The notes beneath the pieces are model-generated. The model saw only the letters and a list, made by a program, of their open reading frames with translations. It was not told the origin of the DNA and did no database searches. Below, in pieces: positions 16,998 through 50,161 of a DNA stretch of 64,000 bases. Positions within the stretch are counted from its first letter, which is position 1. Each line of letters opens with the position of its first letter. The stretch is from Thiomonas intermedia (GTDB taxonomy: Bacteria; Pseudomonadota; Gammaproteobacteria; Burkholderiales; Burkholderiaceae_C), in the NCBI RefSeq assembly GCF_002028405.1, contig NZ_CP020046.1:1550001-1614000 (forward strand), written 5' to 3'. The translations under genes and the position numbers were made by a program.

Positions 16998-17075
16998 CTG
17001 GCCCGTGGTTGCCGCAATTGTTGGTGACCTGATGGGTTTCTGTTGCCTAACATCTATTTGCCGGGAGTAATTACT

Positions 17076-27389: not shown

Positions 27390-28601
27390 GTGGCCGCCGC
27401 AACTCAGAAGATCTTTCGCATCCGGCGTAGCTACAACGCCTGGGTGGCCGACGAGACCATGGAGGACTATGCGCTGCGTTACACACCGCGCAAATTTCGC
27501 AAGTGGTCGGAGCTGCGCGTGGCCAACACGGCCTTCGGCGCGGTGTCGTTCCTGGCGATGGAGGCCATCGGCGCCACCATCGCGCTGAACTACGGTTTCA
27601 CCAACGCGGTGATGGCCATCCTGCTCGTCGGACTCATCACTTTCCTCACAGGCCTGCCCATCAGCTACTACGCCGCCCGCTACGGCGTGGACATGGACCT
27701 GCTCACCCGCGGCGCGGGGTTCGGCTATCTCGGCTCCACCATCACTTCGCTGATCTACGCGAGCTTCACCTTCATCTTTTTTGCGCTCGAAGCGGCCATC
27801 ATGGCGCTAGCGCTGCAGATGTGGTTGGGCATCGGGCTGATCTGGTGCTATTTGCTGAGCTCGCTGCTCATCATTCCGCTGGCGATGCGGGGGATCACGC
27901 TGATCTCGAAGCTGCAGACGTGGACGCAGCCGCTCTGGATGTTCCTGCTGGTGCTGCCGTTCCTGGCGGTGGCCTGGGAGCGTCCGGGGGCGTTTGCCGA
28001 GTTCACCCATTTCGCGGGCCGTATTTCGGGCAGCAGCGGCTTCGAACTGGTGATGTTCGGCGCCTCGGCGACGGTGGCTTTTTCTCTCATCGTGCAGATC
28101 GGCGAACAGGTGGACTTTCTGCGCTTCCTGCCTGAACGCACGCATGAGAATCGTGTGCGCTGGTGGGCTGCGGTGCTGGTGGCCGGACCGGGGTGGATTA
28201 TCCCGGGCATGCTCAAGATGATCGGGGGCGCCTTCCTGGCCTATCTAGCTGTGCAACACGGCGTTGGCGCGTCGCACGCGGTGGAGCCCACGCAGATGTA
28301 TCTCACCGGATATTCGTATGTATTCAGTTCGCCGACGCTCGCGATCGGCGTGACCACGCTGTTCGTCATAGTGTCGCAGGTGAAGATCAACGTAACCAAC
28401 GCTTATGCCGGTTCGCTAGCCTGGTCAAATTTCTTTGCGCGGCTGACCCACAGCCATCCCGGTCGCGTAGTGTGGCTGGTATTCAACGTGGTGATTGCTT
28501 TGATGCTTATGGTGATGGATGTGTTCCACGCCATTGAAGGAGTGCTCGGCCTTTACAGCAATATTGCCATTGCCTGGGTTGGGGCGTTAGTGGCCGATCT
28601 A
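27390..28601 (+). pseudogene. N-terminal half of an NCS1 permease-histidine kinase sensor, cut by IS630
   Basis: The frame (GTG 27390) encodes a nucleobase:cation symporter-1 type membrane domain of about 12 helices: NAWVADETMEDYALRYTPRK, ANTAFGAVSFLAMEAIGATI, GAGFGYLGSTI, SQVKINVTNAYAGSLAWSNF. It is interrupted at codon CTA (28599-28601) by the IS630 element. Removing the 1482-bp element and one TA gives GAT CTA GTA ATC AAT, an uninterrupted frame into the kinase half (LVINKPLGLSP). The restored gene would encode about 1127 residues. As it stands, translation ends inside the IS (VQHP stop). Start codon uncertain: no good ribosome site at the GTG. Confidence 0.88.
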
Positions 28602-28659
28602 GTACAACATCCCTGAAATACCGTTACATAGAGAGGGGCATGAAGTAGACTGTTTGGCC

Positions 28660-29799
28660 ATGAGTCGTGAGCGCGTGGCATCAGTCATCAAGTTGTCGAG
28701 GAAGGATCAGGCGAAGCTGCGAGATACGCTGCGTCGGGGTACGGCGCCGCAGCGCGACGCGCTGCGAGCGCGGATCGCGTTGCTGCTCCACGATGGACAC
28801 ACGATCTCGTCGATCGCATCGACGTTGCAGGTGTCGCGGCCGACCGTGATGCGCTGGCGAGAGCGGCTTGCGCAATCGGGTGTGGAAGGCCTGCACGAGG
28901 GGCTGCGCCCGGGCCGACCTCGACAGATTGACCCGGCGCAGCGTTTGCAACTGCTGGCGCTAGCGTGCGAGACCGGCGAGGATCGCGCCGGGACGCTGCC
29001 GACGCTGGATGAGTTGTGCGTGCGCGCAGTGGAGCGAGGCGTGGTCAAGCACATCAGCCGTAGCCACTTGCAGCGCATTTTGCAGGCTGGCGACGTGCGG
29101 CCGCACCGCGTTCGGCAATGGTTGCATTCGCCCGACCCGCAATTCCGCGAGAAGGTCAACGCGATTTGCGCGCTGTACCGGCGCGCGCCCAAGGGCAGCG
29201 TGGTGCTGAGCGTCGATGAGAAGACCGGCATCCAGGCCATCGAGCGCAAGCATGCGGATCGCCACGCGCAACCCGGGCGACTGCGCCGCCACGAATTCGA
29301 ATACATCCGCCACGGTACACAGGCGCTGACCGCGGCGCTGGACGTGCATACCGGCCGTGTGCTGGGGCGCTGTACCGATCGCCGCACCCAGGCCGACCTC
29401 GTGGCTTTCATGGAAGACGTCGCGCGCGCATATCCCAGCGGGCCCGTGCATGTCATCTGGGACAACCTCAATACCCATCGCGCCTGGGGCGTGTGGCAGG
29501 CGTTCAATGCCCGACACGGCGGACGCTTCGTCTTTCACTACACCCCGCTGCATGCCAGTTGGGTCAACCAGATCGAGTTGCTGTTCGGCATCTACGCCCG
29601 CCGGGTGCTGCGCCGTGCCAGCCACATCTCGGTGCACCATCTGCGCGAGCGCACCGAGGACTTCATTGCCCAGCGCAACCTCGATCCGCGACCGTTCCGC
29701 TGGACGTTTGCAGGCTTCGAGTTGCAAACTGGGGAGCCTAGGCATCACGTCCATTGCTCTCGCCATGACCGCACCCCTCGTCCCCGACCCCGCCAGTGA
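28660..29799 (+). CDS. IS630 transposase, copy 1
   Basis: A 379-residue DDE transposase. The N-terminal helix-turn-helix is ISSIASTLQVSRPTVMRWRE with a Pro/Arg linker (GLRPGRPRQ). The catalytic triad is visible: Asp in VVLSVDEKTGIQAIE, Asp in VHVIWDNLNTHRAW, Glu in ASWVNQIELLFGI. ATG 28660 is preferred to an in-frame TTG 6 bp earlier. The 3' end overlaps the small second gene by 35 bp. Confidence 0.93.
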   Translation: MSRERVASVIKLSRKDQAKLRDTLRRGTAPQRDALRARIALLLHDGHTISSIASTLQVSRPTVMRWRERLAQSGVEGLHEGLRPGRPRQIDPAQRLQLLALACETGEDRAGTLPTLDELCVRAVERGVVKHISRSHLQRILQAGDVRPHRVRQWLHSPDPQFREKVNAICALYRRAPKGSVVLSVDEKTGIQAIERKHADRHAQPGRLRRHEFEYIRHGTQALTAALDVHTGRVLGRCTDRRTQADLVAFMEDVARAYPSGPVHVIWDNLNTHRAWGVWQAFNARHGGRFVFHYTPLHASWVNQIELLFGIYARRVLRRASHISVHHLRERTEDFIAQRNLDPRPFRWTFAGFELQTGEPRHHVHCSRHDRTPRPRPRQ

Positions 29800-30061
29800 A
29801 TTGCAGGGCTTGCTCGCCCAGTTGACCGGGCACGCCGCCGCCCGAGTGCGCCGCTATGGCAAGCATCTGCTCATCCAGATGCAGCGCGACGAATCCCTCG
29901 ACACCGTCGCCCGATTGACCGAGACAGGGCGCGACCACTACGTGGCTGCCTTTCGAACCCATTCAGGGCGTTGGGAGCCACTGCCCGCCTCCGGCAACCT
30001 GCACCAAACCGCCGAGATCGTGGTCGCCATGCTGGCGCCATACCTTGATCCTGAGCTGTAA
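29765..30061 (+). CDS. Accessory small protein of the IS630 element, copy 1
   Basis: A 98-residue protein starting MTAPLVPDPASELQGLLAQL, in a different frame from the transposase and overlapping its end. The sequence is charged and helical, with no motif I recognise. It fills the element exactly up to the right inverted repeat. The same gene is preserved without change in copy 2. Its conservation in both copies makes it a real part of the element, maybe a regulator of transposition; that role is inference. Confidence 0.65.
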   Translation: MTAPLVPDPASELQGLLAQLTGHAAARVRRYGKHLLIQMQRDESLDTVARLTETGRDHYVAAFRTHSGRWEPLPASGNLHQTAEIVVAMLAPYLDPEL

Positions 30062-30085
30062 CTCTATTTAAGGGATGTTGTACTA

Positions 30086-32257
30086 GTAATCAATAAGCCG
30101 CTCGGGCTGAGCCCTAAAGGCATCGAATTCAAGCGAGGGCATCTGTACGACGTCAATCCGGTTGGCATCGGCGCGATGTTGCTCGCGGCGGTTATGTCGA
30201 TTGTGGCCCATGCCGGCTTGATGGGCACGACGGCGCAGGCGTTGGCTCCGCTGATTGCATTGGTTGTATCCCTTGTCACGTCACCATTGATTGCCTGGCT
30301 GACCTGTGGGCGTTACTACATTGCGCGCCCGAACGACTCCGGGTTTCGCCCCGGCGCGGCGGTGCGCTGCAGTGTCTGCGATAACGTCTTCGAATCAGAG
30401 GACATGTCACATTGCCCGGCTTATGACGCCCCGATCTGCTCGCTGTGCTGCTCGCTGGAATCGCGCTGCCATGACCGCTGCAAGACTGGGTCGCGGGCAG
30501 CCGAGCAGGCTGAGGAAATGCTGACGATCTTGCTGCCGCGGGCAATCGCGCACAAGGTCAACGTACGCGTCGCGCACTACTTCGTAGTGTTCTTCTCGCT
30601 AACGCTGCTGCTTTTCACGGTGATGGGGGTGGTCTATCTTCAAGAAGCCGCCGCGCCTGGTGCCGATATGCTGGGGCCGTTTCTGGAGACGGCGTTCTTC
30701 AAGGTCTTTGCGGTGTTGCTGCTCATCATTGCAGTGTGTAGCTGGTGGGTGGTTCTGTCCAGTGAGAGTCGGCGCATGGCGCAGGATGAGTCCAATCGCC
30801 AAAACCTGCTGCTGACGCAGGAAATCGAGGCGCACAGGCGTACTGACGTGGCCTTACAAGAGGCCAAGGAATTGGCCGAGGCGGCTAACTTGGCCAAGAC
30901 GCGCTACGTGGCGGGCATGACGCATGAACTGCGTACGCCGCTTAACAGCATCCTCGGATATTCGCAGATCCTGCTCAAGAACGAGCCCCTGGCGCCAACG
31001 GCCAAGGACGGGGTGCGCACCATCCACCGCAGCGCAGAGCATATGCTGGCCTTGGTCGACGGGCTACTGGACCTTGCCCGCATCGAGGCGGGAAGGCTGC
31101 GTCTTGATCAGGCGCCTCTGGCCTTGCCAGTCTTTATGGATGAATTGGATGCCATGGTGAGGCCGCAGATTGAGAGCAAGGGTCTGGAGTTCGCCTACAC
31201 CCACAGCGGCCCAATGCCAGCCTGGGTACTGGCCGACGCAAAGTACCTGCGGCAGATTCTCATCAACCTACTGAGCAACGCAGCCCGCTTCACAGACGTG
31301 GGGCGGGTTTCGTTGCACGTAGATTGCAGGCACGAGGTGCTGATTTTCGACGTGGAGGACACGGGTGTCGGAGTCGCGCCCCAAGACGTACAGCGCATCT
31401 TCTCGCCGTTTGAGCGAGGCGCCACTGGCCGACAACGTGCCGAGGGTGGTACAGGACTGGGACTAACTATTTCGGCGTTGCTGGCGTCGCTGATGGGGGG
31501 CGAACTAGCCCTGGTACGTACGTCCAAGTCAGGCAGCCTTTTTCGGGTACGCCTGTATCTTCGCGAGATGGCTGATCCTGGAGGGCAGCGGCAGGCTGAT
31601 GTGCCGGTGCGCGCGGCGGGTTACCTAAGCCCGCGCCGCTGCCTGCTGGTTGTCGACGACCAGCCAGTGCAGCGCCAGATGCTGGCGGGCATGTTGGTGC
31701 CGATGGGATTCGAGCTTATCGAGGCCGCCAGTGGCACGGAATGTATGGAAATCCTTGCTACATCGAGCAAGCCGGACGCCGTCTTGCTCGATATCAACAT
31801 GGACGATATGGACGGATGGGAAACGACCCGCCGCATCCGCGAGGCCGGCCACGCCATGCCCATCATCCTTGTGTCAGCCAGCGTGTTTGAGAACCAGCAA
31901 CCATTGATGCGCGCGGCGGGCTGCCAGGCATTCGTCGGCAAACCAGTGATCGAGGCGGAACTGATGCAGACCCTGCAGAAGTGTCTAGGCTTGGAATGGC
32001 TGGCTGCAGAACCGCCGCGCATCACCAATGGGGTGGTTCTTGCGGCATATGAGCGCGTTAAGCTGCCTGGCGATTTCCACGAGCGGGCCTTGCGCGAGTT
32101 GCGCATAGGCCATGTGAATGGGCTGGCACGGATTCTGGAAGACGTGCGCCACAGGCACCCCGAACTGGCTGCGGACTGCGAACGTTTGGGTCGGCTGCTG
32201 GGGCGCTTCGACCTGTCCGGTCTTGGAAGAGCCTTAGCAGAGGCGGAACATGAGTGA
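30086..32257 (+). pseudogene. C-terminal half of the sensor: last helices, Cys cluster, histidine kinase, receiver
   Basis: The frame continues the permease (VINKPLGLSPKGIEFKRGHL) with two or three more helices. A cysteine cluster resembling a zinc site follows (RCSVCDNVFESEDM, CSLCCSLESRCHDRC), then further helices. The kinase core is complete: H-box GMTHELRTPLNSILGYSQIL, N-box INLLSNAARF, DTGVGVAP, GGTGLGLTIS. A receiver domain follows (LLVVDDQPVQRQ, VLLDINMDDMDGWE) and a helical tail. Separated from its start by the IS; an internal ATG at 30176 could give a shortened kinase. It overlaps the response regulator gene by 8 bp. Confidence 0.88.
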
Positions 32258-33167: not shown

Positions 33168-33878
33168 CAACGTGCTGGGACGCTGTGACCCTGCCGAATG
33201 CCCTCATGTGCTTCGTCTTGTGTGGCGAGCAACTCAAGATTTCCTGCCGCTGATGTACTAGTTGAGGAGGATTGAGAGGGCGTACTTATTTCGTGGCTAC
33301 GTCAGGATAAAGCACGCTATTAGTCAAAGGCATGGCGTTTTCTATGGGGCTTTATGAGCCGCCCGGAGATGGCATGGTCCGCCCACCTACAGCGCCGCCG
33401 CTGAAGTGAGACCATCCCTCCAATGGGGGCCTCGCAGAAAGGGCATACCTGTTCCGATCACTCAAGCACAAGACTTCTGCTTTCAACGACACATTACGTT
33501 ATTCCGACCAGGAGTTGCAAGTGTTCAGGATTTTCTGACCCTCAGCTTAATAATATAATTAGCAACCAATCCCCACCCGAAATAAACATTTTCAAATCAT
33601 CCGCTTGAAATGAAACCACCAGCAAAATGAAGATTCCGCAACGCCCCGCGCATTAACGGCCTCGCGTCACCGCCCCCACGGAAGCCCGATCGGCGCGGCT
33701 GCTGGGCAGACCCGGCCGACAAGGTTGATTCCTGCGGCGAACGTCGGCTACGGCGCAGCGGCCGGTACCCGTGCCATGTCCGATGCCTGCTCAGACCGGG
33801 CATCTGCCGGTAGGTACTCGGCAACCCGCAGCAGCAGGACTGCGACCAAGCTCGCGGCCATCTGTCGCACCACCTCTG
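33168..33878. other. 711-bp gene-free junction, amide locus to defence island
   Basis: No convincing coding sequence on either strand. The stretch 33480-33610 is markedly more AT-rich than its surroundings, and the rest is GC-rich without motif. The region separates the plus-strand response regulator from the minus-strand restriction locus and probably holds an old insertion boundary. I see no tRNA, repeat or attachment site in it. Confidence 0.5.
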
Positions 33879-34595
33879 CTAATACCCCCAATCCTCGTGC
33901 CTGACCGGCAGCCTGTTGAGCTGTTTGCGCAGGTGCTGCCAGTGCGGGAGGTGCTGGTCCATGAGATCCGAAAACCGGGCGTTGTGCGTTGGCTCTACCA
34001 GGTGCACCAGCTCATGGACCACGATGTACTCGAGGCACTCGGGCGGCTTTTTGGCGAGATCGGTGTTGAGCCGGATGGAGCCCAGGGCGGGGTTGCAGCT
34101 GCCCCATTTGGTTTTCATGCGCTGCACGAACACGCGCGCGGCCTTCACTTGCAGCAGGGGTTCCCACTGGGCCAGCAGTTGCGGCAGAGCATTGCGAACC
34201 TGCTGCCGGTACCAGCCCTCGAGAATCTGCCCGCACTTGGCCGGATCGGTGCCGGGTCGCACTTGCAGCTGGAGCTTGCGCGGCGAGATGCTCACGGCCG
34301 GCGGCGACTCGGCAAAGCTGATCTCAAGGAGATAGCGCTTGCCCCACAGAAAATGACTTTCCTTGTTCAGGAACTCATGGGGCGCCTCCCGATCCTGCGC
34401 CTGCAGCTTGCGTTGCTGGGAACGGATCCACCCCAGCTTGGAGACGACGAACAGGCGGATCGTGTCCAGCGGCATGGCCTCGGGGGCCGCGACCCGGACC
34501 CTGCCTGCGGGCGGCAGCACGCTCAGGTGGACGTGCTTGATCGCTTTTCGGGTCACCTCGGCCCGCAGCCCGCCCAGGTCGAGGGTGTCGCGCAT
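33879..34595 (-). CDS. YgjP-like zinc metalloprotease linked to type I restriction
   Basis: A 238-residue M48/DUF45 (YgjP) family protein. The zinc motif is HELVHLVEPTHNARF (HExxH) near residue 201, preceded by the family pattern KTKWGSCNPALGSIRLNTDL. ATG 34595 shares its A with the hsdR stop (TGATG), so the two are translationally coupled. Members of this family often stand next to hsdR; a role in controlled proteolysis of the restriction subunit has been suggested but I do not know of proof. Cytoplasmic, no signal peptide. Confidence 0.85.
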   Translation of the reverse strand: MRDTLDLGGLRAEVTRKAIKHVHLSVLPPAGRVRVAAPEAMPLDTIRLFVVSKLGWIRSQQRKLQAQDREAPHEFLNKESHFLWGKRYLLEISFAESPPAVSISPRKLQLQVRPGTDPAKCGQILEGWYRQQVRNALPQLLAQWEPLLQVKAARVFVQRMKTKWGSCNPALGSIRLNTDLAKKPPECLEYIVVHELVHLVEPTHNARFSDLMDQHLPHWQHLRKQLNRLPVRHEDWGY

Positions 34596-37500
34596 CAGTA
34601 CTCCTTCTGCGCGAACACGATGGGGAACAGCCGCTGCACTTCGTCGAAGTTCTGCAGCACCTCGTACATCGCCTGTTTGACCATCTGCTCGCGCGCGACC
34701 ACCCCGCGCCAAGCGTCCGGCCGCTTGGACTTGATGGCCCGGTCCAGGTGCAGTGCCGTGTCCAGCGCCCGGTCCCACGCGCCGTAGGGAGCTTCGGGCT
34801 CCTGCACGGCATCCACGACCACGTGGCCCTTCAGGTTGTTGTACAGGGCCAGCTGGCCCTGGGTTTTCAGCTGCGGCGGCGTGTCCTCGGACTTGCCGGC
34901 GCTGACCTGCTTGGCGATGTCGGCGATCCGGGCCAGGTAGTCCTCGTACTCGACGGCTCGCTCCTTGCGCAGGCGGATGATTTCATCGAGCAGCGCGGAC
35001 ATCTTGGCGAAGTAGGCCGGGTCGGTGAGCTGCTCCTTGAGGATCCTGCTGCGGACGTTGTTCTCGATGGTCTCGGCGATGGATTCCTGGTTGCCCTTCA
35101 TCTCGCCCAGGCGCTCGGCAATCGCGTCGGCGATGCCGGTCTTCACGATCAGATCCAGCAAACCCACCCCGTCGAAAGGAGAGATCTTGCGCGGCGCCTG
35201 TGCTTCGATGTAAGTGTCGATGAGGTGGCGCATGTCCGCCTCGTAGGGTTTCAGGTCGAGTGTCTCGCCAGCGGCCTTGCGGATGATTTCGCGCAGGTTC
35301 AGGTAGTGTTTCACCAGGGCCTTGCTGCGATCGATCTGCTCGGGCGTGTAGCCAGCGGCCTCCATCTCGTCGGCCAGGTTGGCAAAAGCGCGCACCAGGG
35401 CCACCACGGCTTTGTAGAGCGCCACGCGATGCGGTTCGCGCGACTTCAAGTCGTCGGGAATCTCGGTGTTGCCGCAGAAGTAGTGGATGTACTGCAGGTC
35501 GCCCTTGGGCGGCTGCACCGGTTCACACAGCAGGGCCAGGGCCTCGATCGCATCGTCCAGACGCACGCGGCCCACCTCCAGACGGTCTTTGATCATGATC
35601 TCGGGGTCGGCACCCCCGGCGCTGTGGTCCAGCTCCGAGGTGTAGACCGCGATCGCCTTCTCCACCTTTTTGAACAGGTCCTTGTAGTCGACGATGTGGC
35701 CGAAGTCCTTGTCATCGCCGTCAAGCCGGTTGGTCCGGCAGATGGCCTGGAACAGGCCGTGGTCCTGCATCGACTTGTCGATGTAGAGATAGGTACAGGG
35801 CGGCGCGTCGAATCCGGTCAGCAGCTTGTCGACCACGATCAGCAGTTTCATCTGCGCCGGTTCGCGGATGAAGCGCTTCTTCACCTCCTGCTCGTAGGTT
35901 TCCGTCCGGGTCATCCCCGGCCGGGCCACCACGTCCTTGAGCAAGTCGGTGTAGGTGTTGTAGATGAACTGCTTGTCGCTCTCGGTGTTGGCGCCGGTTT
36001 CCTCCTTGCTGACGTCCGAGGCTTGCGGGTCGTACGAGGTGACCACCGCGCAGCGGCCCTTGAACACCGTCTTGCCGAACAAGGCGAAGTACTTGCAGGC
36101 CTCGTAGATGCTCGACGCCACCAGGATGGCGTTGCCTCGCTCACTGGACAGCCGCGGCTTGACCGCGAAGTCGAACACGATGTCGGCCACCACCCGGTCC
36201 ATGCGGGCGCGCGAGCTGAGCACATGCTGCATGGTGCCCCACTGCTTCTTCAGCTCGTCCTTCTGCCATTCGTTCAGGCCCTTGGTCTTGGCCTCGAACC
36301 ACTGGTCGATCTGTTCGTTGCTGCCCAGCTTCTGGTCGATGTCGCGCGCCTCGTACACCAGGTCCAGCACCACGCCGTCTTCCACCGCCTCGGCGAACTT
36401 GTAGGTGTGGATGTAGCCGCCGAACACCTCCAGGCTGGTCTGCGCATCTTGCTTGAGCAGCGGCGTGCCCGTGAAACCGATGAACACCGCGTTCGGCATC
36501 AGCGCCTTCATCAGCTTGTGCAGCTTGCCGCCCTGGGTGCGGTGGCACTCGTCCACGAACACATAAATCTCACCCTGCGTCTGGCTGGGCTGTGCGGCCA
36601 GTTCGCGCAGGTAGGTGGCGAAGTCCTCTTCCGTGTCGCCCACTCCGCGCCGCCCGAACTTGTGCACCAGCGAACACAACAGACGCGGATTGGGCTGTGC
36701 CAGTTGCGCCATCAGGTCGCGGCCACTCTGGCTGCGCTGGATGGCCTGCCCTGCATCCTTGAACACCCGGTCAATTTGCTCATCCAGCTCTTCGCGGTCG
36801 GTGATGATGGCCACGCGCGCCGCCGGCTGGTTCTCCAGAATCCAGCGCGCCAGCAGCACCATCAGGATGCTCTTGCCCGCCCCCTGGGTGTGCCAGATGA
36901 TGCCGCCACGCCGTTGCTGCACATGCGCCTGCGCCGCCTTGATGCCGAAGTACTGGTGCACCCGCGGCAGCTTCTTGACGCCGCCGTCGAACAGCACGAA
37001 GTCGTGAATCAGCTCCAGCAGCCGGGCCTTGCTGCACAGCTTGGCCAGGTACTTGTCGAGCTTGTAGCCAGCGTTGTCGGCCACGTCTTCCTTCCAGGTC
37101 AGGAAGTACTTCTCCTGCGTTTCGATGCTGCCGTAGCGCAGCCCCTCCGAATCGTTGCCCGCCATCACCAGCTGGACGGTGCTGAAGAACCAGTCGTTGA
37201 ATTCCGGCTGCTGGTTCGACAGGCACTGGCGGATGCCTTCGCCCAGGCCCACGCGGCTGTTCTTCAGCTCCAGCACGCCCACCGCGATGCCGTTGAGGTA
37301 CAGCACGATGTCGGGCCGGCGCTCATGCCCACCCTTGAGCGTCACCTCCTCGGCAATGGCAAAGTCGTTGTCGGCCGGCTGGTCCCAGTTCACCAGGTGC
37401 ACCGTCTCCGTGTCCGCACCGGCCTCCACCCGCACCGACACGCCGTAGCGCAGCAGCTGGTACACGGCCTGGTTGGCGGCATACAGCGTGCGCCCGTGCA

Positions 37501-37714
37501 GCAGCGCTTCAGAGCGCAGCTTGTGCAGCGCGGCGCTGATGTGTGCGGGGCTGTAGCCGCGCCCCGCCAGGTGCGCCGACAGCAGGCCCTCTTCCACACA
37601 GTGGTTGCCCGCCCGGTCCGACCAGTCGCCCAGGTAGCGGTAACCCAGCTGCTGGGTGAAGAGCGCGATCACCCGGTTCTGGGTGGCGCGTTCGGGTTTG
37701 TTGATGCTGCTCAT
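34595..37714 (-). CDS. hsdR: Type I restriction endonuclease subunit R
   Basis: A 1039-residue HsdR. The nuclease domain is N-terminal with PDIVLYLNG (Asp135) and VGVLELKNS (Glu149, Lys151), the PD-(D/E)xK site. The helicase motor follows: Walker A TQGAGKS at 276-282, DECH at 388-391, GFTGTPL, and late TGFDAPPC and ICRTNRLD. It translocates and cleaves unmethylated foreign DNA with HsdM2S. Its upstream 229 bp is gene-free and carries a small palindrome, so hsdR may have its own promoter, separate from hsdMS and the ATPase/HNH pair. Confidence 0.96.
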   Translation of the reverse strand: MSSINKPERATQNRVIALFTQQLGYRYLGDWSDRAGNHCVEEGLLSAHLAGRGYSPAHISAALHKLRSEALLHGRTLYAANQAVYQLLRYGVSVRVEAGADTETVHLVNWDQPADNDFAIAEEVTLKGGHERRPDIVLYLNGIAVGVLELKNSRVGLGEGIRQCLSNQQPEFNDWFFSTVQLVMAGNDSEGLRYGSIETQEKYFLTWKEDVADNAGYKLDKYLAKLCSKARLLELIHDFVLFDGGVKKLPRVHQYFGIKAAQAHVQQRRGGIIWHTQGAGKSILMVLLARWILENQPAARVAIITDREELDEQIDRVFKDAGQAIQRSQSGRDLMAQLAQPNPRLLCSLVHKFGRRGVGDTEEDFATYLRELAAQPSQTQGEIYVFVDECHRTQGGKLHKLMKALMPNAVFIGFTGTPLLKQDAQTSLEVFGGYIHTYKFAEAVEDGVVLDLVYEARDIDQKLGSNEQIDQWFEAKTKGLNEWQKDELKKQWGTMQHVLSSRARMDRVVADIVFDFAVKPRLSSERGNAILVASSIYEACKYFALFGKTVFKGRCAVVTSYDPQASDVSKEETGANTESDKQFIYNTYTDLLKDVVARPGMTRTETYEQEVKKRFIREPAQMKLLIVVDKLLTGFDAPPCTYLYIDKSMQDHGLFQAICRTNRLDGDDKDFGHIVDYKDLFKKVEKAIAVYTSELDHSAGGADPEIMIKDRLEVGRVRLDDAIEALALLCEPVQPPKGDLQYIHYFCGNTEIPDDLKSREPHRVALYKAVVALVRAFANLADEMEAAGYTPEQIDRSKALVKHYLNLREIIRKAAGETLDLKPYEADMRHLIDTYIEAQAPRKISPFDGVGLLDLIVKTGIADAIAERLGEMKGNQESIAETIENNVRSRILKEQLTDPAYFAKMSALLDEIIRLRKERAVEYEDYLARIADIAKQVSAGKSEDTPPQLKTQGQLALYNNLKGHVVVDAVQEPEAPYGAWDRALDTALHLDRAIKSKRPDAWRGVVAREQMVKQAMYEVLQNFDEVQRLFPIVFAQKEY

Positions 37715-37742
37715 GTGGCCGTCCCTGGCTTTTATCCAAAAC

Positions 37743-37758
37743 TATCTTGAAAAAGATA
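37743..37758. promoter_or_regulatory. Palindrome upstream of hsdR
   Basis: TATCTT-GAAA-AAGATA is a perfect 6-bp inverted repeat in an AT-rich patch 29 bp above the hsdR start. It could be an operator or part of the hsdR promoter. The surrounding 37715-37943 has no gene. Confidence 0.4.
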
Positions 37759-37943
37759 ATTGCTTAATTCTTGGGCAGTCCTGGCGCGGGCGGGCGCTGT
37801 TTTGGCTCAGTCATTGACCATCCAAGCAAAAAATCTTCAATGCAGACAACAACCTAGAGAGCGACCACACCCGTTTGGCGCAGAAATATGGCGCAACCTG
37901 GGGAGATATCCCGGCATCTGAGCCAAATCACGACAGGTGGCAG

Positions 37944-38612
37944 CTAGAAGAGCCCGGTGTTCGTACCTGGCAAGGCTTGGAGCAACAGATCCCGCATCGC
38001 TGGATCGTCGGCAAAAACCGTCATCCACACGCTCCAGAAGCCCTTCGCCTGCGCGGTCTCAATGATTTGCGCGCGCATGACTTGCGTAGCGTCCAAGGGG
38101 CAGCGAGCCAGCCGATCTTTTGCACGAACGGCCATATCCCATGCCTCCCGCCGATTTAACCAGCGCCGGTCCGATGCTTCTAAGGTATCTGGTCGGACAT
38201 GCAGCCCGACCAGCTTGATGAGTCGATCAGATCGAACCTGCAGGGCGCCTGGAACGCTTTCCACCACGCCGCCTTCGCTGTAGCGCAAGGCGTGGAATGT
38301 GTCGTCCCTGTCCGGCCACAGGTAGTCGTTCAGCACCACATCTGTATCGCCCTTGGTGGAATTGCAGTTGGTACAGGCCAGCAGGAAGTTGTCCCAATCA
38401 AGCTCTCGCTCTGGGATCGCTGCCGCGGCACCGGGCGGTTTCTTGGGTTGGACATGTTCGACGGCGAGCGAAGCATCCAGCTGCATCTCGCAGTAAGAAC
38501 AGTACTCCCCCATACGCTGTATCAGCTCGCGACGGGCTTGCTGGTATGCGCTGAATTTGATCTCCTGCCCGTTCTGATCCTGCGGGCACGTACCCCTCAA
38601 AACCGGCCGCAT
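37944..38612 (-). CDS. HNH endonuclease, PtuB-like (Septu-type defence)
   Basis: A 222-residue protein with a TIGR02646/PtuB-type HNH domain: CSYC (38-41), EH (Glu52, His53) in LAVEHVQPKK, then WDNFLLACTNCNSTKGD with Asn75, Cys80, Cys83 and Asn84. The C-terminal half is helical. Its ATG shares the A of the upstream ATPase stop (TAATG), the usual tight coupling of PtuA and PtuB. In Septu systems the ATPase forms a ring that controls the HNH nuclease during phage infection. The same HNH family occurs in some retrons, but no reverse transcriptase is present here. Confidence 0.87.
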   Translation of the reverse strand: MRPVLRGTCPQDQNGQEIKFSAYQQARRELIQRMGEYCSYCEMQLDASLAVEHVQPKKPPGAAAAIPERELDWDNFLLACTNCNSTKGDTDVVLNDYLWPDRDDTFHALRYSEGGVVESVPGALQVRSDRLIKLVGLHVRPDTLEASDRRWLNRREAWDMAVRAKDRLARCPLDATQVMRAQIIETAQAKGFWSVWMTVFADDPAMRDLLLQALPGTNTGLF

Positions 38613-39949
38613 TACTTGTCGCCCTTCAGCGGTCGTGACGGCCCCAAACCAGCAGCCAGACGTTCCATCTCAAGAAACGCGTGATAGGCAACCTCTTCGC
38701 TGAAGGGCGCCGACAGTTCATCCAGTCGAACCTTCAACGCTTCGAGCGCCTGGTCGTCTGTGGGGCGTGGTCCGTTCAGTTCCGCGTAATACGCCTTCGC
38801 GGCTTCATGCATTTCTTTCAGACGCTCGCTTCGTTGCGGCATCTTGATGCCCATGACGCCCTCGACAATGTCCTCAATAGACCGATTGCTGAAGGCTGCC
38901 CCTGGGCCGGGGGCTGCGACACCGTCAGGCACCGAAGCGTCGGAAATGTCCTGCAAGGGCTGATCCAGGTCGATCACTTCACCCGGGTTCAGCGATTGCA
39001 AGATGAACGGGGAGTGCGTGGTGGCAATGAACTGCAGTGCTGGAAACGCCCGCTGGAGGTCTTTCACCACGTGGCGTTGCCACTTGGGGTGCAGATGCAG
39101 ATCGATCTCGTCGATCAGCACCACACCCTGCGTCTTCAGCGCGGCGTTCTCGCCATGTTGCGGATTGAGGCGGGAAGCCCGGTGCGCAATATCGGCCACC
39201 ATGGCCACCATGTTCCGGTATCCGTCACTCAGGCTGTTGAATTGGACCAATCCTTCCTTTTCTAGGCGGATGGTGATTTCGTCGTACTCCGTGTCGTGGA
39301 AGAAGTCCTGAGCCCCCGGAATACACGCCAACACAGCATTTCTGACCACCTGGATCGCGGGGCTGGCTTCCCCTTTCTGCAGAGCGGTGAAAGTCAGCTT
39401 CTTGAACCACTTCTCAAATGCTTTCTGGTCTGACTTGGGGTCCAGGCAATATCGGTAGGCATCCAGCTGCGACGAGGGTTGGCTGGTCTCCACGTTGTCA
39501 TGCAGCGTCCACAACCGGCCAGCACCGTAGTACAGCAGCAAAGGCAAATCCGGACTCTCCCCCGCCTTCAACAGCGCTCGGCCCTGTGCGCCCAGTTGCA
39601 CCAGATTCTTGGCTTTCCCCCCGCGGTCCCCAATCTCCCTGCGCCAAGTCAAGGGTCCTGTGGCGATTTTCACAGTGGCTTCGAGCGCCACGTCATCCAT
39701 CTGCTCCCTGAAGACTTGCCCTTCCTTTTGGGTGAACACCGCCCGGGCGTCCGCAGGCTTGATCGTCCCGCCACCGGTGGGCAGTCTGGCACCCTGAAAG
39801 TAGGTATTCAGCAGCATGGCCAAGGCGTCCAGCACGGTGGTCTTGCCCGCACCGTTGTTGCCGATCATGACGGTGAACTGCGGGTGAAACTGAAAACCAG
39901 CCCGCTCGTAACGCCGGAAGTTCTGTAGCGAGATGTGATGGATTTTCAT
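38612..39949 (-). CDS. AAA/ABC-type ATPase, PtuA-like (Septu-type defence)
   Basis: A 445-residue SMC/RecF-like ATPase. It begins MKIHHISLQNFRRYERAGFQ. Walker A GNNGAGKTT is at 30-38, a degenerate signature SLSDGYRNM near 240, Walker B VVLIDEIDLHLHPKW at 276-290, and the switch TTHSP at 310-314. The family (AAA_21/AAA_15) includes PtuA of Septu and OLD-type ATPases; no TOPRIM domain follows, and a separate HNH gene is coupled directly downstream, which favours PtuA. It sits between hsdS and hsdR, inside the restriction locus. Confidence 0.87.
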   Translation of the reverse strand: MKIHHISLQNFRRYERAGFQFHPQFTVMIGNNGAGKTTVLDALAMLLNTYFQGARLPTGGGTIKPADARAVFTQKEGQVFREQMDDVALEATVKIATGPLTWRREIGDRGGKAKNLVQLGAQGRALLKAGESPDLPLLLYYGAGRLWTLHDNVETSQPSSQLDAYRYCLDPKSDQKAFEKWFKKLTFTALQKGEASPAIQVVRNAVLACIPGAQDFFHDTEYDEITIRLEKEGLVQFNSLSDGYRNMVAMVADIAHRASRLNPQHGENAALKTQGVVLIDEIDLHLHPKWQRHVVKDLQRAFPALQFIATTHSPFILQSLNPGEVIDLDQPLQDISDASVPDGVAAPGPGAAFSNRSIEDIVEGVMGIKMPQRSERLKEMHEAAKAYYAELNGPRPTDDQALEALKVRLDELSAPFSEEVAYHAFLEMERLAAGLGPSRPLKGDK

Positions 39950-39965
39950 GATTCGACAGCCTACT

Positions 39966-41234
39966 TCAGTTCAGTCGGATTTTGCCCGTCAGCAGGGCCT
40001 GGGCCATGGCCTGCTTGAGGGCGCGGGCTTTGGTGAGGCGGGATTCGAGGGCGGTGAGTTCGGTGTCCATGTCGGAGAGGACTTGGGCGATGGTCGTTTG
40101 CTCTGGCACCTCCGGTAACTCAACTTCGATTTCGCCTAGGGCATTGGCGCTGATGTGCACTACGGCATCTCCCTGACCTCTGCTGGCTTTCTGGCGCACC
40201 ACAAAAGGCATGTTGAGCAGATAGCCCAGGAACATCGAATCAGCCTCCACCGTCGGGCGAAGGATCACGATGTCGCCGCCTGCGTACGCTGGCTCGTTGT
40301 AGAGGAAGGCCACGCACTTACCGATTTCCTCCTTCGTCTCACCGGAGCCTGCAAACAGCAGATCGCCTCGGCGCAGCACAGTCGATGTGGCAGCCACCAC
40401 AGGCGAAATCCACGAGCTAAAGCTACGAATGTGGTCCGAATGGGTGGTGTAAATCTCGCCGTAGCGCACACAAGGCAAATCGCCACTGAGCGCTTCGTCG
40501 CGCCTAACGCCCGATCCCTTCAAGAAAGTGCCCAGTTGGCACAGCTTTGATTCTTTCCAAGGTCGGTCGAACCCCGGCAACCGCCGCTTGCCGGTGAGCA
40601 GTTCCTGCATGGCGCCTTGCTTGATCTGGCGCTTCTTGGTCAGCAGTTGCTCCAGCGAGTCGATCAGGGCGTCGGCGTCGGTGAGAGCGCTGGCGATACT
40701 GTGCTGCTCTGTGCGCGTCGGGGGCAACCCAACGCGAATTTGCTTGACGATAAGTCCACTGAGGTTCTCTTGACTGCCGCCATTGCTGAGGCTGCGGATG
40801 TACTCGTAGCGGTGAGTCAGGTTGTGGCGAACAAAGTCGCTGTCCACTTCTTTGGCAAGCGTTATCGCTGCGCATGCTTGATTGGTGGTTGCCGCGATTC
40901 TCAGGACAGCGCACTTTCCGCGAGTTTTCCCTTGACCGTAGAGCGCGATCAGTAGCGTGCCGGGCGCCAACCATTTCGCAGCCGAGTTCTGGAGGCCTGC
41001 TGCGGTGATGTGCTGTGAGGCCGCAGTGATTTGCCCACCGTCCAGCTCTGCCGTTGTGACCCAGGGAATGTCGCCATCCCAGAAGGCAGCGACTTTCCGA
41101 CTCGGCGTTCCACCAGAGGTCACTTCGGCTATCGCACCAATCGGCATGTCGATCCAGTCAAACGGGATGTCTCCGGCCTCGGTTCGCTTGCACTGCGACA
41201 CCAGGTACTTGGCACTGGGCTCCCTCACTTCCAT
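39966..41234 (-). CDS. hsdS: Type I restriction-modification specificity subunit S
   Basis: A 422-residue HsdS with two target-recognition domains, each starting in the usual way: IGAIAEVTSGGTPSRK and LCQLGTFLKGSGVRRDEA. Each is followed by a conserved helix (TKKRQIKQGAMQELLTGKRR; TKARALKQAMAQALLTGKIR). The helices act as a molecular ruler and the two domains read the split target. ATG 41234 overlaps the hsdM stop by 10 bp; the longer open frame is an hsdM shadow. The target sequence cannot be derived from the protein by eye. Confidence 0.93.
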   Translation of the reverse strand: MEVREPSAKYLVSQCKRTEAGDIPFDWIDMPIGAIAEVTSGGTPSRKVAAFWDGDIPWVTTAELDGGQITAASQHITAAGLQNSAAKWLAPGTLLIALYGQGKTRGKCAVLRIAATTNQACAAITLAKEVDSDFVRHNLTHRYEYIRSLSNGGSQENLSGLIVKQIRVGLPPTRTEQHSIASALTDADALIDSLEQLLTKKRQIKQGAMQELLTGKRRLPGFDRPWKESKLCQLGTFLKGSGVRRDEALSGDLPCVRYGEIYTTHSDHIRSFSSWISPVVAATSTVLRRGDLLFAGSGETKEEIGKCVAFLYNEPAYAGGDIVILRPTVEADSMFLGYLLNMPFVVRQKASRGQGDAVVHISANALGEIEVELPEVPEQTTIAQVLSDMDTELTALESRLTKARALKQAMAQALLTGKIRLN

Positions 41235-43681
41235 ACAAACCCCATCTTCGCCAGATGCCCCGCCACCCGCGTCTCCAGGTCGTCCACCTGCTGCGCCAGT
41301 TCCGGCATGGTCCGCCCGTAGCGCTCGGCCAGTTCCTTCACCCGCCCGGTGAGGGCCTGGCTCACGCGGTCCAGCTCGCCGTGCACGGCGGCGTCCAGCG
41401 CCGCCATCCACTTGTGGTCCACCACCAGGGTCTTCACCTCGTCGGGTGTCAGCGTGGGGTAGCGCGCCAGGGCCTGGGCATCGAGTGCGGCGTCCAGCGC
41501 CTTGATGCGCTTCTTCAGGCCGCTGGCCTGTTCGGACAGAGCCAGCCATTGCTTGAGCACGGCCAGCTCGTCGGCAGAGTTCGGATCTTCAGCGGCGTCC
41601 TGGCCGATCTCCTTGATGCGCGCCTTCACTTCCTTGTCGTTGATCTTCTCAAAGCCGCTGAACACGGCATCGTCACCGCTGTGTTCTTCTTCCAGCTCGG
41701 TCATGGTGGCCTGGGCGGTTTCCAGCTCGGCGGCCAGCCGGTCCAGCTCGGCCTGTTCGGCGGCAAAGTGGTGCTGCACCAGCAGGGCTTTGGGCACCAG
41801 GTCGCAGGCCCAGCCTTTGTCCACGGTTTTGCCGGGGGTGCCGTCCTTGTTCTTCTTGGTCTCCAGCACGCGGGTGGGCTCGGCCTTCCAGCCGTCTTCG
41901 CTGATCAGGTAGGCGTCGTCCTGCATCGTCTGCGCCCAGTAGTCCATCAGGTGCTGGTAGGCGGCGTAGGGGTCGATGAGGTGGCACCCCTTGGGCGGGT
42001 GTTCGTAGTGGTCGAGCAAGCCCTCGGCCACTTCGGCGATCAATGCCTTGGGGTGGAAGTCAGGCTCCAGGTCTTTGAGGTAGGGCGTGACCTCGGCCCG
42101 CCAGGCGGCGAAGTGGGCGGCCATGGTCTGGGTGAAGGCCACGAACTCGGGGTGCTGGTGGATGGCGGCCTTGACGCCGGCGGGGGGCACGGTCAGGGCC
42201 AGGTAACCGGGGCGGCGCGGCTGGAACAGCGCGTCTTTGAGCTGCGGGCAGACGGCCCAATAACGGCCCAGGGTGTGGCCCAGCGTGTCGGGGGCCAGCA
42301 CGTCGGCCTCGGGGATGCCGCCGTTCAGGTGCGCGTCGATGTCCTGCGCGTCTTCGGGCGTGCTGCTGTCGATGTAGCGCGGCAGGTTGAGGTTGAAGTC
42401 GTTCTTCTCGATTTCATGAAGGCCCACCATGCGGGCATAGCGCGGGTCGCTGCCGTCCAGCCGGGTGAAGGTGTCGACGATGCGGTGGAGGTCGCGCTCG
42501 CGCAGGCGGTTCTTGGGGCCGTCTTTCATGAAGCCCTGGGCGGCGTCGATCATGAAGATGCCCTTGCGCGCAGCGGCACCGGCTTTGTCGATGACGAGGA
42601 TGCAGGCCGGGATGCCGGTGCCGTAGAACAGGTTGGCCGGCAGGCCGATGATGGCCTGGATGAGCCCGCGCCGCACCAGGCTCTTGCGGATCTCGGCCTC
42701 GGCATTGCCGCGGAACAGCACGCCGTGCGGCAGGATGCAGGCGCCCCGGCCGGTGGGTTTGAGCGAGCGCACGATGTGCAGCAGGTAGGCGTAGTCGCCC
42801 TGTTTGTCGGGCGGGGTGCCGAAGCCTTCAAAGCGCTTGAACCGGTCGCCGCCCAGGCCGGTGCTCCAGCGCTTGTCGGAGAACGGCGGGTTGGCCACCA
42901 CGTAGTCGAAGGTCTTGAGCTGGTCGCCATCGAGGAATTTGGGGTCGGCCAGGGTGTTGCCCTGTTCGATGACCGCACCGGGGTTGTGGTGCAGGATCAT
43001 GTTCATGCGGGCCAGGCCGCTGGTGACTTCTTCCTTTTCCTGGCCGTAGACGCTGACGGCGGTGGGCGCCGCCTCGGCCACCTTGAGCAGCAGCGAGCCG
43101 GAGCCACAGGTGGGGTCGTACACGGTGGTGTCGGGGCTGGTCTTGGCGCTGGCAATGCCCAGCACCTGGGCCATGACGCGGCTGACTTCGGCGGGTGTGT
43201 AGAACTGGCCCTTGCTCTTTCCACTTTCGGTGGCGAAGTGGCGCATCAGGTATTCGTACGCATCGCCCAGGATGTCGTCACCGTCGGCGCGGTGGCGGCT
43301 GAAGTCCAGGTCCTTGGACTCGAAGATGCCGATCAGGTTGCCTAGCTTGTCGACTTTCTCCTTGCCTTGCCCGAGCAAGGCGTCGTCATTGAAGTCGGCC
43401 TTGATGCGCAGGCGGTTGGCGTCTTCCAGCGGGCGGATGATTTTTTTGTTGATCTGGTCGCCGATGTCGCTGCGGCCTTTGAGCGCCACCATGTCGGCGA
43501 AGCTCGCGCCCGCGGGGATCTGAATCGGCGCGAAGGGCTGGTCGGCGTATTTGTCGCTGATGTATTTGATGAACAGCATCACCAGCACGTAGTCCTTGTA
43601 CTGGCTGGCATCCATGCCCCCGCGCAGTTCGTCGCACGAGGCCCAGAGTTTGGAATAGAGATCGGACTTCTTGATGGCCAT
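41225..43681 (-). CDS. hsdM: Type I restriction-modification methyltransferase subunit M (long form)
   Basis: An 818-residue HsdM. The N-terminal helical domain opens with LWASCDELRGGMDASQYKDY. The SAM motif is DPTCGSGS at 189-196, and the catalytic NPPF at 264-267 makes it an N6-adenine methyltransferase. It modifies the host target and forms the core of the restriction complex. At 818 residues it is much longer than the usual 500 or so: residues from about 480 onward add a charged, partly coiled-coil region (LAAELETAQATMTELEEEHS). It is the first gene of the minus-strand island. Confidence 0.95.
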   Translation of the reverse strand: MAIKKSDLYSKLWASCDELRGGMDASQYKDYVLVMLFIKYISDKYADQPFAPIQIPAGASFADMVALKGRSDIGDQINKKIIRPLEDANRLRIKADFNDDALLGQGKEKVDKLGNLIGIFESKDLDFSRHRADGDDILGDAYEYLMRHFATESGKSKGQFYTPAEVSRVMAQVLGIASAKTSPDTTVYDPTCGSGSLLLKVAEAAPTAVSVYGQEKEEVTSGLARMNMILHHNPGAVIEQGNTLADPKFLDGDQLKTFDYVVANPPFSDKRWSTGLGGDRFKRFEGFGTPPDKQGDYAYLLHIVRSLKPTGRGACILPHGVLFRGNAEAEIRKSLVRRGLIQAIIGLPANLFYGTGIPACILVIDKAGAAARKGIFMIDAAQGFMKDGPKNRLRERDLHRIVDTFTRLDGSDPRYARMVGLHEIEKNDFNLNLPRYIDSSTPEDAQDIDAHLNGGIPEADVLAPDTLGHTLGRYWAVCPQLKDALFQPRRPGYLALTVPPAGVKAAIHQHPEFVAFTQTMAAHFAAWRAEVTPYLKDLEPDFHPKALIAEVAEGLLDHYEHPPKGCHLIDPYAAYQHLMDYWAQTMQDDAYLISEDGWKAEPTRVLETKKNKDGTPGKTVDKGWACDLVPKALLVQHHFAAEQAELDRLAAELETAQATMTELEEEHSGDDAVFSGFEKINDKEVKARIKEIGQDAAEDPNSADELAVLKQWLALSEQASGLKKRIKALDAALDAQALARYPTLTPDEVKTLVVDHKWMAALDAAVHGELDRVSQALTGRVKELAERYGRTMPELAQQVDDLETRVAGHLAKMGFVWK

Positions 43682-43981
43682 GTGTTGCGGTTGTGCGGGT
43701 TCGATTTTTCTGGGACTGCGCTCAATGGATCGTCAGAGGTCCACATTGGCGGCGGCGGGCACATCGTAAATCGGGGGGGCGAAACCCATGTAGGCGTGAC
43801 GCTGTCAGCACGCAGCGCCGTCGATAACTGGGTTGTTTGCCGAAGGGCACGAGGTGGGAATTGCCTGCGCCAACATTCGCGACAACGTGCACTCGGAACC
43901 GGCCGCCTTCTGGTTTGCTGGAGCCGTGGATCGACATGGATAGCCCATCCAGGCATACAGCATTCAAGTGGCCCGACCCGC
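43682..43981. other. Upstream region of hsdM, no gene
   Basis: Three hundred bases between the hsdM start and the DnaE2 fragment. No ORF is convincing and no clean promoter could be picked. It must hold the promoter of the restriction operon. The join to the DnaE2 fragment on its right marks the edge of acquired DNA. Confidence 0.4.
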
Positions 43982-44467
43982 TCAATGGAATTCCCGCCCC
44001 CGTGTCACCAGCCGTCCGAGCAACGGCGTCAGGTCCTCCAGATGCCCGGCGATGAGGCTGGCCGTGTCGCCTTCGCGCTGCCAGGTGCCCGCTACCGCCA
44101 GCAGTCTCGCTCTCAGCAGCACCGTGCGCTGCCGCTGCCGCAGGCCCTTCCAGCAAATCACCTGCACCACCCCGGTCTCGTCCTCCATCGACACGAAGGC
44201 CGTGCCCTTGGCCGTTTCCGGCTGTTGCCGCAAGGTCACGATGCCGCAGGCGCGCACGATGCGGCCGTGGGGTGCTCGCGTCAGTTCTTCCGCCGTCTGC
44301 AGCCGCCGCGCGCTGAGCATGGGTCGCAGCAAGGCCAGCGGATGCCGCCGCAGCGTCATCCCGGTCGCGGCGTAATCGAACACGATGTCCTCGCCCTCGG
44401 GCGGGGCGGGAAGGTCGAGCCAGTCCTCCCTGGGTGCGGCGTCAAGCAAACCCGGCGGGCGTTCCAC
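43982..44467 (-). pseudogene. C-terminal fragment of error-prone DNA polymerase DnaE2 (ImuC)
   Basis: About 160 residues match the very end of DnaE2: GMTLRRHPLALLRPMLSARR, GRIVRACGIVTLRQQPETAK, TAFVSMEDETGVVQVICWKG, ending VTRGREFH. This is the OB-fold region of a polymerase of over 1000 residues. All catalytic domains are missing and sequence above 44467 is unrelated. The intact gene was therefore cut off by an insertion or deletion, probably when the island entered. Confidence 0.85.
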
Positions 44468-45497: not shown

Positions 45498-47088
<1,591 letters not shown>

Positions 47089-48627: not shown

Positions 48628-48732
48628 TGTTCTAGCGCCGTCACATCTCCGATGACCTTCACTCTCGGCTCCTAGTACAACATCCCTGAAATACCGTTAC
48701 ATAGAGAGGGGCATGAAGTAGACTGTTTGGCC

Positions 48733-49872
48733 ATGAGTCGTGAGCGCGTGGCATCAGTCATCAAGTTGTCGAGGAAGGATCAGGCGAAGCTGCGAGATAC
48801 GCTGCGTCGGGGTACGGCGCCGCAGCGCGACGCGCTGCGAGCGCGGATCGCGTTGCTGCTCCACGATGGACACACGATCTCGTCGATCGCATCGACGTTG
48901 CAGGTGTCGCGGCCGACCGTGATGCGCTGGCGAGAGCGGCTTGCGCAATCGGGTGTGGAAGGCCTGCACGAGGGGCTGCGCCCGGGCCGACCTCGACAGA
49001 TTGACCCGGCGCAGCGTTTGCAACTGCTGGCGCTAGCGTGCGAGACCGGCGAGGATCGCGCCGGGACGCTGCCGACGCTGGATGAGTTGTGCGTGCGCGC
49101 AGTGGAGCGAGGCGTGGTCAAGCACATCAGCCGTAGCCACTTGCAGCGCATTTTGCAGGCTGGCGACGTGCGGCCGCACCGCGTTCGGCAATGGTTGCAT
49201 TCGCCCGACCCGCAATTCCGCGAGAAGGTCAACGCGATTTGCGCGCTGTACCGGCGCGCGCCCAAGGGCAGCGTGGTGCTGAGCGTCGATGAGAAGACCG
49301 GCATCCAGGCCATCGAGCGCAAGCATGCGGATCGCCACGCGCAACCCGGGCGACTGCGCCGCCACGAATTCGAATACATCCGCCACGGTACACAGGCGCT
49401 GACCGCGGCGCTGGACGTGCATACCGGCCGTGTGCTGGGGCGCTGTACCGATCGCCGCACCCAGGCCGACCTCGTGGCTTTCATGGAAGACGTCGCGCGC
49501 GCATATCCCAGCGGGCCCGTGCATGTCATCTGGGACAACCTCAATACCCATCGCGCCTGGGGCGTGTGGCAGGCGTTCAATGCCCGACACGGCGGACGCT
49601 TCGTCTTTCACTACACCCCGCTGCATGCCAGTTGGGTCAACCAGATCGAGTTGCTGTTCGGCATCTACGCCCGCCGGGTGCTGCGCCGTGCCAGCCACAT
49701 CTCGGTGCACCATCTGCGCGAGCGCACCGAGGACTTCATTGCCCAGCGCAACCTCGATCCGCGACCGTTCCGCTGGACGTTTGCAGGCTTCGAGTTGCAA
49801 ACTGGGGAGCCTAGGCATCACGTCCATTGCTCTCGCCATGACCGCACCCCTCGTCCCCGACCCCGCCAGTGA
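48733..49872 (+). CDS. IS630 transposase, copy 2
   Basis: Identical, residue by residue, to the transposase of copy 1, with the same helix-turn-helix, DDE residues (SVDEKTG, VIWDNLNTH, NQIELLF) and length of 379. The intact frames and identical sequence suggest both copies are active or recently so. Confidence 0.93.
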   Translation: MSRERVASVIKLSRKDQAKLRDTLRRGTAPQRDALRARIALLLHDGHTISSIASTLQVSRPTVMRWRERLAQSGVEGLHEGLRPGRPRQIDPAQRLQLLALACETGEDRAGTLPTLDELCVRAVERGVVKHISRSHLQRILQAGDVRPHRVRQWLHSPDPQFREKVNAICALYRRAPKGSVVLSVDEKTGIQAIERKHADRHAQPGRLRRHEFEYIRHGTQALTAALDVHTGRVLGRCTDRRTQADLVAFMEDVARAYPSGPVHVIWDNLNTHRAWGVWQAFNARHGGRFVFHYTPLHASWVNQIELLFGIYARRVLRRASHISVHHLRERTEDFIAQRNLDPRPFRWTFAGFELQTGEPRHHVHCSRHDRTPRPRPRQ

Positions 49873-50134: not shown

Positions 50135-50161
50135 CTCTATTTAAGGGATGTTGTACTAGTC

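Follow-up and report, generated by a model that had tools for sequence, protein, structure and literature searches.

Defence systems nested inside other defence loci have already been published, with DarTG2 placed in the hsdS-hsdR slot, TgvAB in a type I restriction-modification (R-M) cluster, and Septu within Hma. In the RptR island that carries DarTG2, the repressor gene rptR precedes hsdM (PMC12255303), and TgvAB has been reported to protect without HsdR restriction activity (PMC11411939). Septu itself joins an ATPase, PtuA, to an HNH nuclease, PtuB; in Septu EcB88 both ATPase and nuclease are needed, and tRNA-Tyr is cut in its variable loop upon infection (PMC13096335). Retron-Eco7 PtuAB likewise depletes tRNA-Tyr; for retron-Eco4, tRNA is an unlikely target, and the Septu of ATCC 25922 has a reported action on nicked DNA (PMC11555353). 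A partial literature search returned no published report of a Septu between hsdS and hsdR, and the preprint of Payne et al. 2024, whose subject is defences nested in other immune systems, may contain one.

The locus compared here lies in a 64,000-nucleotide stretch of Thiomonas intermedia DNA, referred to as the window, whose positions are used throughout. On the minus strand the genes run in the order hsdM, hsdS, ptuA, ptuB, hsdR and a YgjP-like metallopeptidase gene, so that, as the sequence-only reading had stated, the pair sits within a type I restriction locus and on its strand. The features are as follows.

41225–43681, minus strand: hsdM, 818 aa (Pfam, PADLOC and NCBIfam matches)
39966–41234, minus strand: hsdS, about 422 aa, with two target recognition domains (two Methylase_S stretches; Pfam)
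39972–40103, minus strand: conserved 3′ block of hsdS, the left seam of the slot, common to loci with different cargo (locus DNA comparison)
38612–39949, minus strand: ptuA, Septu ATPase, 445 aa (ORF and family profile matches)
37944–38612, minus strand: ptuB, HNH nuclease, 222 aa (ORF and family profile matches)
37715–37943, minus strand: ptuB-hsdR spacer, 229 bp, the right seam, of which at most the last 14 bp are kept in relatives (locus DNA comparison)
34595–37714, minus strand: hsdR, 1039 aa, with HSDR_N, SWI2/SNF2 and T1R_D3 (Pfam, PADLOC and NCBIfam matches)
33879–34595, minus strand: YgjP-like metallopeptidase gene (Pfam)

The genes are closely packed. hsdM and hsdS overlap by 10 bp, 16 bp separate the end of hsdS from ptuA, ptuA and ptuB share base 38612 in a 1-bp TAATG overlap, and 229 bp separate ptuB from hsdR. 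The ATG of the YgjP-like gene overlaps the hsdR stop by 1 bp, and this gene follows hsdR in most relatives examined. Internal stops were absent from hsdM, hsdS, hsdR, ptuA and ptuB, and the hsdM-hsdS-hsdR operon is apparently intact. No sigma-70-like site was found across 33700–44300. The single strand and the 16-bp and 1-bp junctions make co-regulation of ptuAB with hsd plausible, as do the 4-bp overlaps at the corresponding junctions of another nested pair, L115.

Several features surround the operon. A large serine recombinase (45498–47087, plus strand), whose best NCBIfam match is the cassette recombinase CcrB at a score under the cut-off, lies just upstream and faces away. Also upstream of hsdM is a 161-aa ORF (43982–44467, minus strand) in which only an OB-fold was recognized; it presumably resembles the tail of the error-prone polymerase DnaE2, perhaps as what is left of a disrupted gene. 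A 1,489-bp sequence occurs in two identical direct copies (28599–30087 and 48672–50160), each with a DDE_3 transposase ORF; between them lie about 18.6 kb that include the hsd/Septu locus, the serine recombinase and a Fic gene; no outer flank shared by the two copies was seen.

Family profiles identify both members of the pair. PtuA matches the PADLOC PtuA1 model PDLC00278 over nearly its whole length (E = 2.5 × 10−132, residues 1–434 on profile positions 1–433 of 436), and its best PDB sequence match is the Septu PtuA 8ee4 (E = 2 × 10−50). PtuB, encoded directly downstream of ptuA, matches PtuB1 model PDLC00315 (E = 1.9 × 10−74, 248 bits); its subfamily stands well apart from the remaining PADLOC PtuB models, the next best of which scores 51 bits. 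The protein also carries a Pfam HNH domain (E = 4.8 × 10−7). A PtuB profile built from 18 relatives matches solved PtuB chains (best E = 1.6 × 10−8; Septu PtuB 8ee7_C, E = 6.5 × 10−8). An AlphaFold2 model of PtuB (pLDDT 87, pTM 0.85) has nine PDB matches at E ≤ 0.001, all of them chains of retron or Septu PtuAB complexes. Because both proteins give full-length matches to curated defence families and PtuB has a PtuB-like predicted fold, chance is ruled out, and the earlier description of a PtuA-like ATPase and a PtuB-like HNH protein joined at TAATG held up.

The catalytic residues are conserved as well. Across 24 aligned rows, PtuA is invariant at Walker A K36, signature S241-D242-G243, Walker B D280-E281 and H312, and PtuB at C38, C41, H53, N75, C80, C83 and K87; the like residues K43, D316, H75 and N91 are essential in Septu EcB88 (PMC13096335). 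With a full-length PtuA, a downstream PtuB HNH protein, and Walker A/B and HNH residues in place, the two genes form a complete Septu type I pair (PtuAB) with catalytic residues intact, and the locus is the defence system within another that the sequence-only reading had described, a Septu pair within a type I R-M operon. It holds the sole PtuA match at E ≤ 1 × 10−5 in the 3.34-Mb genome (two contigs).

Other assignments for the pair were considered and rejected. Membership of retron I-A (Septu type II) is not indicated, the NCBIfam retron equivalogs scoring under their cut-offs (217.6 of 500 and 35.8 of 150); no reverse transcriptase gene lies beside ptuAB, whose neighbours are hsdS and hsdR. 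For a plasmid origin there was one weak plasmid match only, from Rhizobium (31.6%), and for a viral origin one IMG/VR contig (L110, 60% at PtuB), whose ORF coordinates and scores are the same as those of the Photobacterium locus L094.

We examined how often the hsdS-hsdR junction is occupied among relatives. HsdR searches gave matches in 43 of 299 family genomes and 24 of 369 class genomes, and junctions of the near matches were examined, excluding G213, G243, G014 and matches of about 34% identity and below in the family, and G736, G761, G770 and G975 in the class. The gap survey covered 39 loci, 38 of them measurable (L074 was unmeasurable), and left out L067/L068 (contig break), L069, L072, L073, L133 and L135. 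A slot was counted as occupied where the hsdS-hsdR gap reached 400 bp or more and contained, on the hsd strand, an ORF of 100 aa or longer. By this definition 31 of the 38 junctions were occupied, counting as empty L070 and L071, whose hsdS calls are doubtful; setting aside the window and Sphaerotilus, which were found by PtuB, leaves 29 of 36 among the loci sampled by HsdR. These counts replace one of 28 of 39, obtained under the same criterion with cruder hsdR starts placed too far upstream. Empty slots do occur, as at L059, where hsdS and hsdR overlap by 4 bp. The occupancy supports the earlier proposal of a preferred spot.

The cargo is mixed. It was named by PADLOC at a few loci and otherwise by Pfam; "by likeness" marks a judgement by eye from the sequence.

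GmrSD: L058, L060, L122, L125, L132; L061 by likeness
CBASS-type SMODS and SLATT with Schlafen-AlbA: L063; fusion remnant in L128
Kiwa KwaA-KwaB: L119 (7445–8855), L129 (2432–3842)
zeta toxin: L052, L129; L054 by likeness
Fic: L056, L065, L118, L120, L130
YhcG: L057
NucS-like: L052, L134
Schlafen-AlbA: L063, L064, L116, L129, L131
DUF4062/Fic-like_C protein: L117
PIN protein: L123
IrrE-DUF4411 pair: L124
BRO: L121
DUF3800: L126
AAA_22 ATPase: L051; L053 by likeness

The Fic, BRO and DUF proteins, each known by its Pfam name, are putative defence genes. The CBASS-like SMODS and SLATT_4 pair spans 5171–8461 of L063, and a short ORF in L128 (8379–8822) fuses a SMODS front to a SLATT_4 end, perhaps a deletion remnant. 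An AAA_22-type ATPase of 394–395 aa recurs at L051 (5342–6529; the Pfam match), L053 (5894–7081) and L091 (10752–11936), alone in the slot or behind PtuAB, and is possibly an unnamed defence gene. DUF1016/YhcG nuclease genes occupy a second cargo spot, the hsdM-hsdS junction, at L055 and, by likeness, at L062 and L067.

Comparison of the window with seven hsd loci in which the hsdR start is present (L051–L055, L072 and L091) delimits the slot sharply. Window DNA matches these loci in hsdM (not covered at L072) and in short central and 3′ blocks of hsdS, of which L072 covers the 3′ block only. Between the seams there is no match in six of the seven; in the seventh, Sphaerotilus (L091), the match runs through PtuAB to 38002 and then stops. 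Homology resumes in all seven from a point between 37728 and 37707 onward, which lies from 14 bp before hsdR to 7 bases inside it, and the DNA shared ahead of hsdR is rich in purines and looks like a ribosome-binding stretch. The spacer at 37715–37943 had no blastn match to the loci examined and no Rfam match. The sequence-only reading had hsdR keeping its own 229-bp upstream region: the length is right, but beyond about 14 bp the region is unconserved across the seven loci. Since likeness between loci breaks off where hsdS ends and returns no more than 14 bp ahead of hsdR, the 229 bp are not a conserved hsdR upstream region; we also rejected them as a retained hsdR promoter region, given this short shared piece in the seven compared loci, the missing blastn and Rfam matches, and the lack of any sigma-70-like site in the scan. 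The likeness before hsdR being confined to the ribosome-binding-like stretch, the spacer belongs to the cargo side.

Septu fills the slot at four loci: the window, L091, G214 (L067/L068) and G574 (L115). Sphaerotilus natans ATCC 13338 (L091) has the order hsdM-hsdS-ptuA-ptuB-AAA_22-like gene-hsdR. G214 has hsdM, a YhcG-like gene, hsdS, an ORF, ptuA, ptuB and more on L067, whose contig breaks off with the front part of a zeta-like gene. A separate contig, L068, begins with the rest of a zeta-like gene followed by hsdR. The two likely join into one slot across the contig break, although the contig ends do not overlap. At L115 a divergent PtuAB occupies the slot of a far type I family (HsdR 25% identical), where each junction from hsdS through ptuA and ptuB to hsdR is a 4-bp overlap. 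There hsdR is followed by two neighbouring GmrSD_N proteins (13237–17450), which brings R-M, Septu and a TgvAB-like pair together at L115.

The PtuB subfamily is rare, occurring in 3 of 399 genomes of the order, and the evidence for a recurrent nest accordingly comes from four loci, of which G214 spans a contig break; among HsdR-sampled loci, PtuAB was found in G214 only. A genome-contig scan recovered 19 subfamily loci, spread over Pseudomonadota, Chlorobiota, Myxococcota, Chloroflexota, cyanobacteria, planctomycetes, Verrucomicrobia, Actinomycetota and ANME archaea. In 17 of the 19, the DNA examined held no hsd gene matching the window's hsd family by blastp, a search that could miss very divergent hsd genes and in which some contigs were short; hsd is therefore unnecessary for the pair's persistence. 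At L114 (9262–12942) a PtuAB pair not nested in hsd has a TnpB-like OrfB gene as its neighbour.

Trees of PtuAB and HsdM tell different histories. The PtuAB tree omitted L105 and L108, whose PtuB is incomplete, L110 and L092, which duplicate L094 and G214/L067 respectively, and 12 of 16 other family PtuA loci (L075–L090), keeping L075, L076, L081 and L082; the HsdM tree omitted L069–L072, L074, L133 and L135 (no full HsdM or too distant) and L073 (no hsdR). The window, Sphaerotilus and G214 group together in the PtuAB tree (support 100/99), with window and Sphaerotilus PtuAB as sisters (PtuA 79% identical). In the HsdM tree, by contrast, the window's sister is G191 (92% identical), whose slot has only an AAA_22 ATPase, and G214 falls in another part, so that this PtuAB lineage occurs with distant hsd lineages and its presence requires three changes, which may be one gain and two losses. 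A single HsdM clade of the window, Sphaerotilus and G214, three rows picked by cargo before the tree was seen, was rejected (p-AU = 0.00035), as was one of the window and Sphaerotilus (p-AU = 0.0019). Path lengths between the window and G214 are 0.59 for PtuAB versus 1.17 for HsdM, and between the window and Sphaerotilus 0.35 versus 0.24. This disagreement indicates exchange, and movement of PtuAB between hsd slots is the simplest account of the sequences. Together, seams and tree discordance favour the cassette-like acquisition suggested earlier.

We put at roughly three in four the probability that the pair is a self-contained Septu type I operon carried as exchangeable cargo in the hsdS-hsdR slot and working as follows. 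ptuAB would be transcribed with hsdM-hsdS. PtuA, an ABC-type ATPase, would assemble with PtuB and hold the HNH nuclease silent until infection, whereupon the released nuclease would cut nucleic acid, either tRNA, like one E. coli Septu and retron-Eco7, or DNA, the reported target of another Septu, and so abort infection by phages that escape restriction. Cargo would be swapped by homologous recombination anchored in the conserved hsdS 3′ end and the hsdR start. PtuAB most likely works on its own rather than through the HsdMSR enzyme: since freestanding members persist without hsd, we favour shared transcription combined with independent action.

Nesting could instead be functional, with HsdMSR binding or restraining PtuAB as a second line of defence that a phage anti-restriction protein releases. 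There is precedent in PrrC, an anticodon nuclease whose gene lies within a type IC operon and which the R-M enzyme keeps in check until phage Stp switches it on (PMC3874165, PMC2610378); some PtuAB cut tRNA, and a divergent PtuAB with overlapping junctions occupies the same slot of the unrelated type I operon at L115. Against such coupling, 17 of the 19 subfamily members show no matching hsd gene nearby, the many unrelated systems in the slot argue for general cargo, and Pfam and PADLOC revealed no hsd-specific domain in PtuA or PtuB, so that we consider it unlikely. We rank lower a broader proposal, in which the slot would be a cassette site that needs no integrase, with cargo selected for action once restriction fails, and PtuAB would be a PrrC analogue evolved from an unrelated nuclease, an ATPase-gated, HsdMSR-restrained HNH protein (perhaps a tRNase) unleashed by phage anti-restriction proteins.

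Two further accounts would deprive the slot or its exchange of significance. Defence genes generally cluster, and subfamily members are also found elsewhere, as expected had Septu landed among R-M genes by chance in a defence island, the slot having no special role; yet 29 of 36 junctions are occupied and the seams fall at the same two places, a regularity well beyond that of a loose island, and we think this reading improbable, below both forms of coupling to HsdMSR. The least probable, and by our estimate very much so, is a vertical relic, a single entry of PtuAB into an ancestral hsd locus followed by loss in most descendants. The sister relationship of window and Sphaerotilus PtuAB, together with their nearly related hsd genes, would suit it, and a parsimony count cannot separate gain from loss; however, window and G214 are much closer in PtuAB than in HsdM while window and Sphaerotilus show the reverse, and L115 is a separate nest. 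Exchangeable cargo remains our preferred reading.

What earlier papers recorded as single cases is here counted across one large type I R-M family, in which the hsdS-hsdR junction is a permanent site for cargo, bounded by fixed seams and occupied by Septu, Kiwa, CBASS, GmrSD and toxin modules. The unnamed genes in the slot become defence candidates, among them the 395-aa AAA_22 ATPase, DUF3800, DUF4917 and a 427-aa protein without a Pfam match, and the nested Septu offers a clean test of whether such cargo is coupled to restriction like PrrC or merely carried.

Compared with known systems, the pair resembles E. coli Septu (type I; PDB 8ee4/8ee7/8eea) in gene order, ATPase and HNH composition, catalytic residues and fold, and differs from it in being nested in an hsd operon and in its PtuB of the PDLC00315 subfamily. 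It shares an ATPase with an HNH partner with the PtuAB effector of retron Ec78 (Eco7), but has no adjacent reverse transcriptase gene. The prr operon has the gene order prrA-B-C-D. As in EcoprrI with its PrrC (PMC3874165, PMC2610378), a nuclease that depends on an ATPase is encoded within a type I operon, but PrrC is one protein with its own anticodon nuclease triad whose orthologues are invariably linked to type Ic R-M, whereas PtuAB is HNH-based and mostly found without hsd; the PrrC/RloC anticodon nuclease family was absent from the Pfam and NCBIfam matches and the best 25 PADLOC matches. TgvAB (GmrSD-like) of V. cholerae is likewise a two-gene defence cargo inside a type I R-M cluster, although, unlike Septu, a type IV restriction system (PMC11411939). 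The Septu embedded in Hma (Payne et al. 2024, cited in PMC12255303) is also nested cargo, but in an Hma rather than an hsd host locus. DarTG2 of enteropathogenic E. coli, in the RptR island, shares both the hsdS-hsdR slot and the downstream metallopeptidase gene, and its cargo, unlike that of the window, is a toxin-antitoxin pair (PMC12255303). To these single cases the present locus and its relatives add an occupancy count, the seams of the slot, the recurrence of PtuAB within it and the discordance between cargo and host trees.
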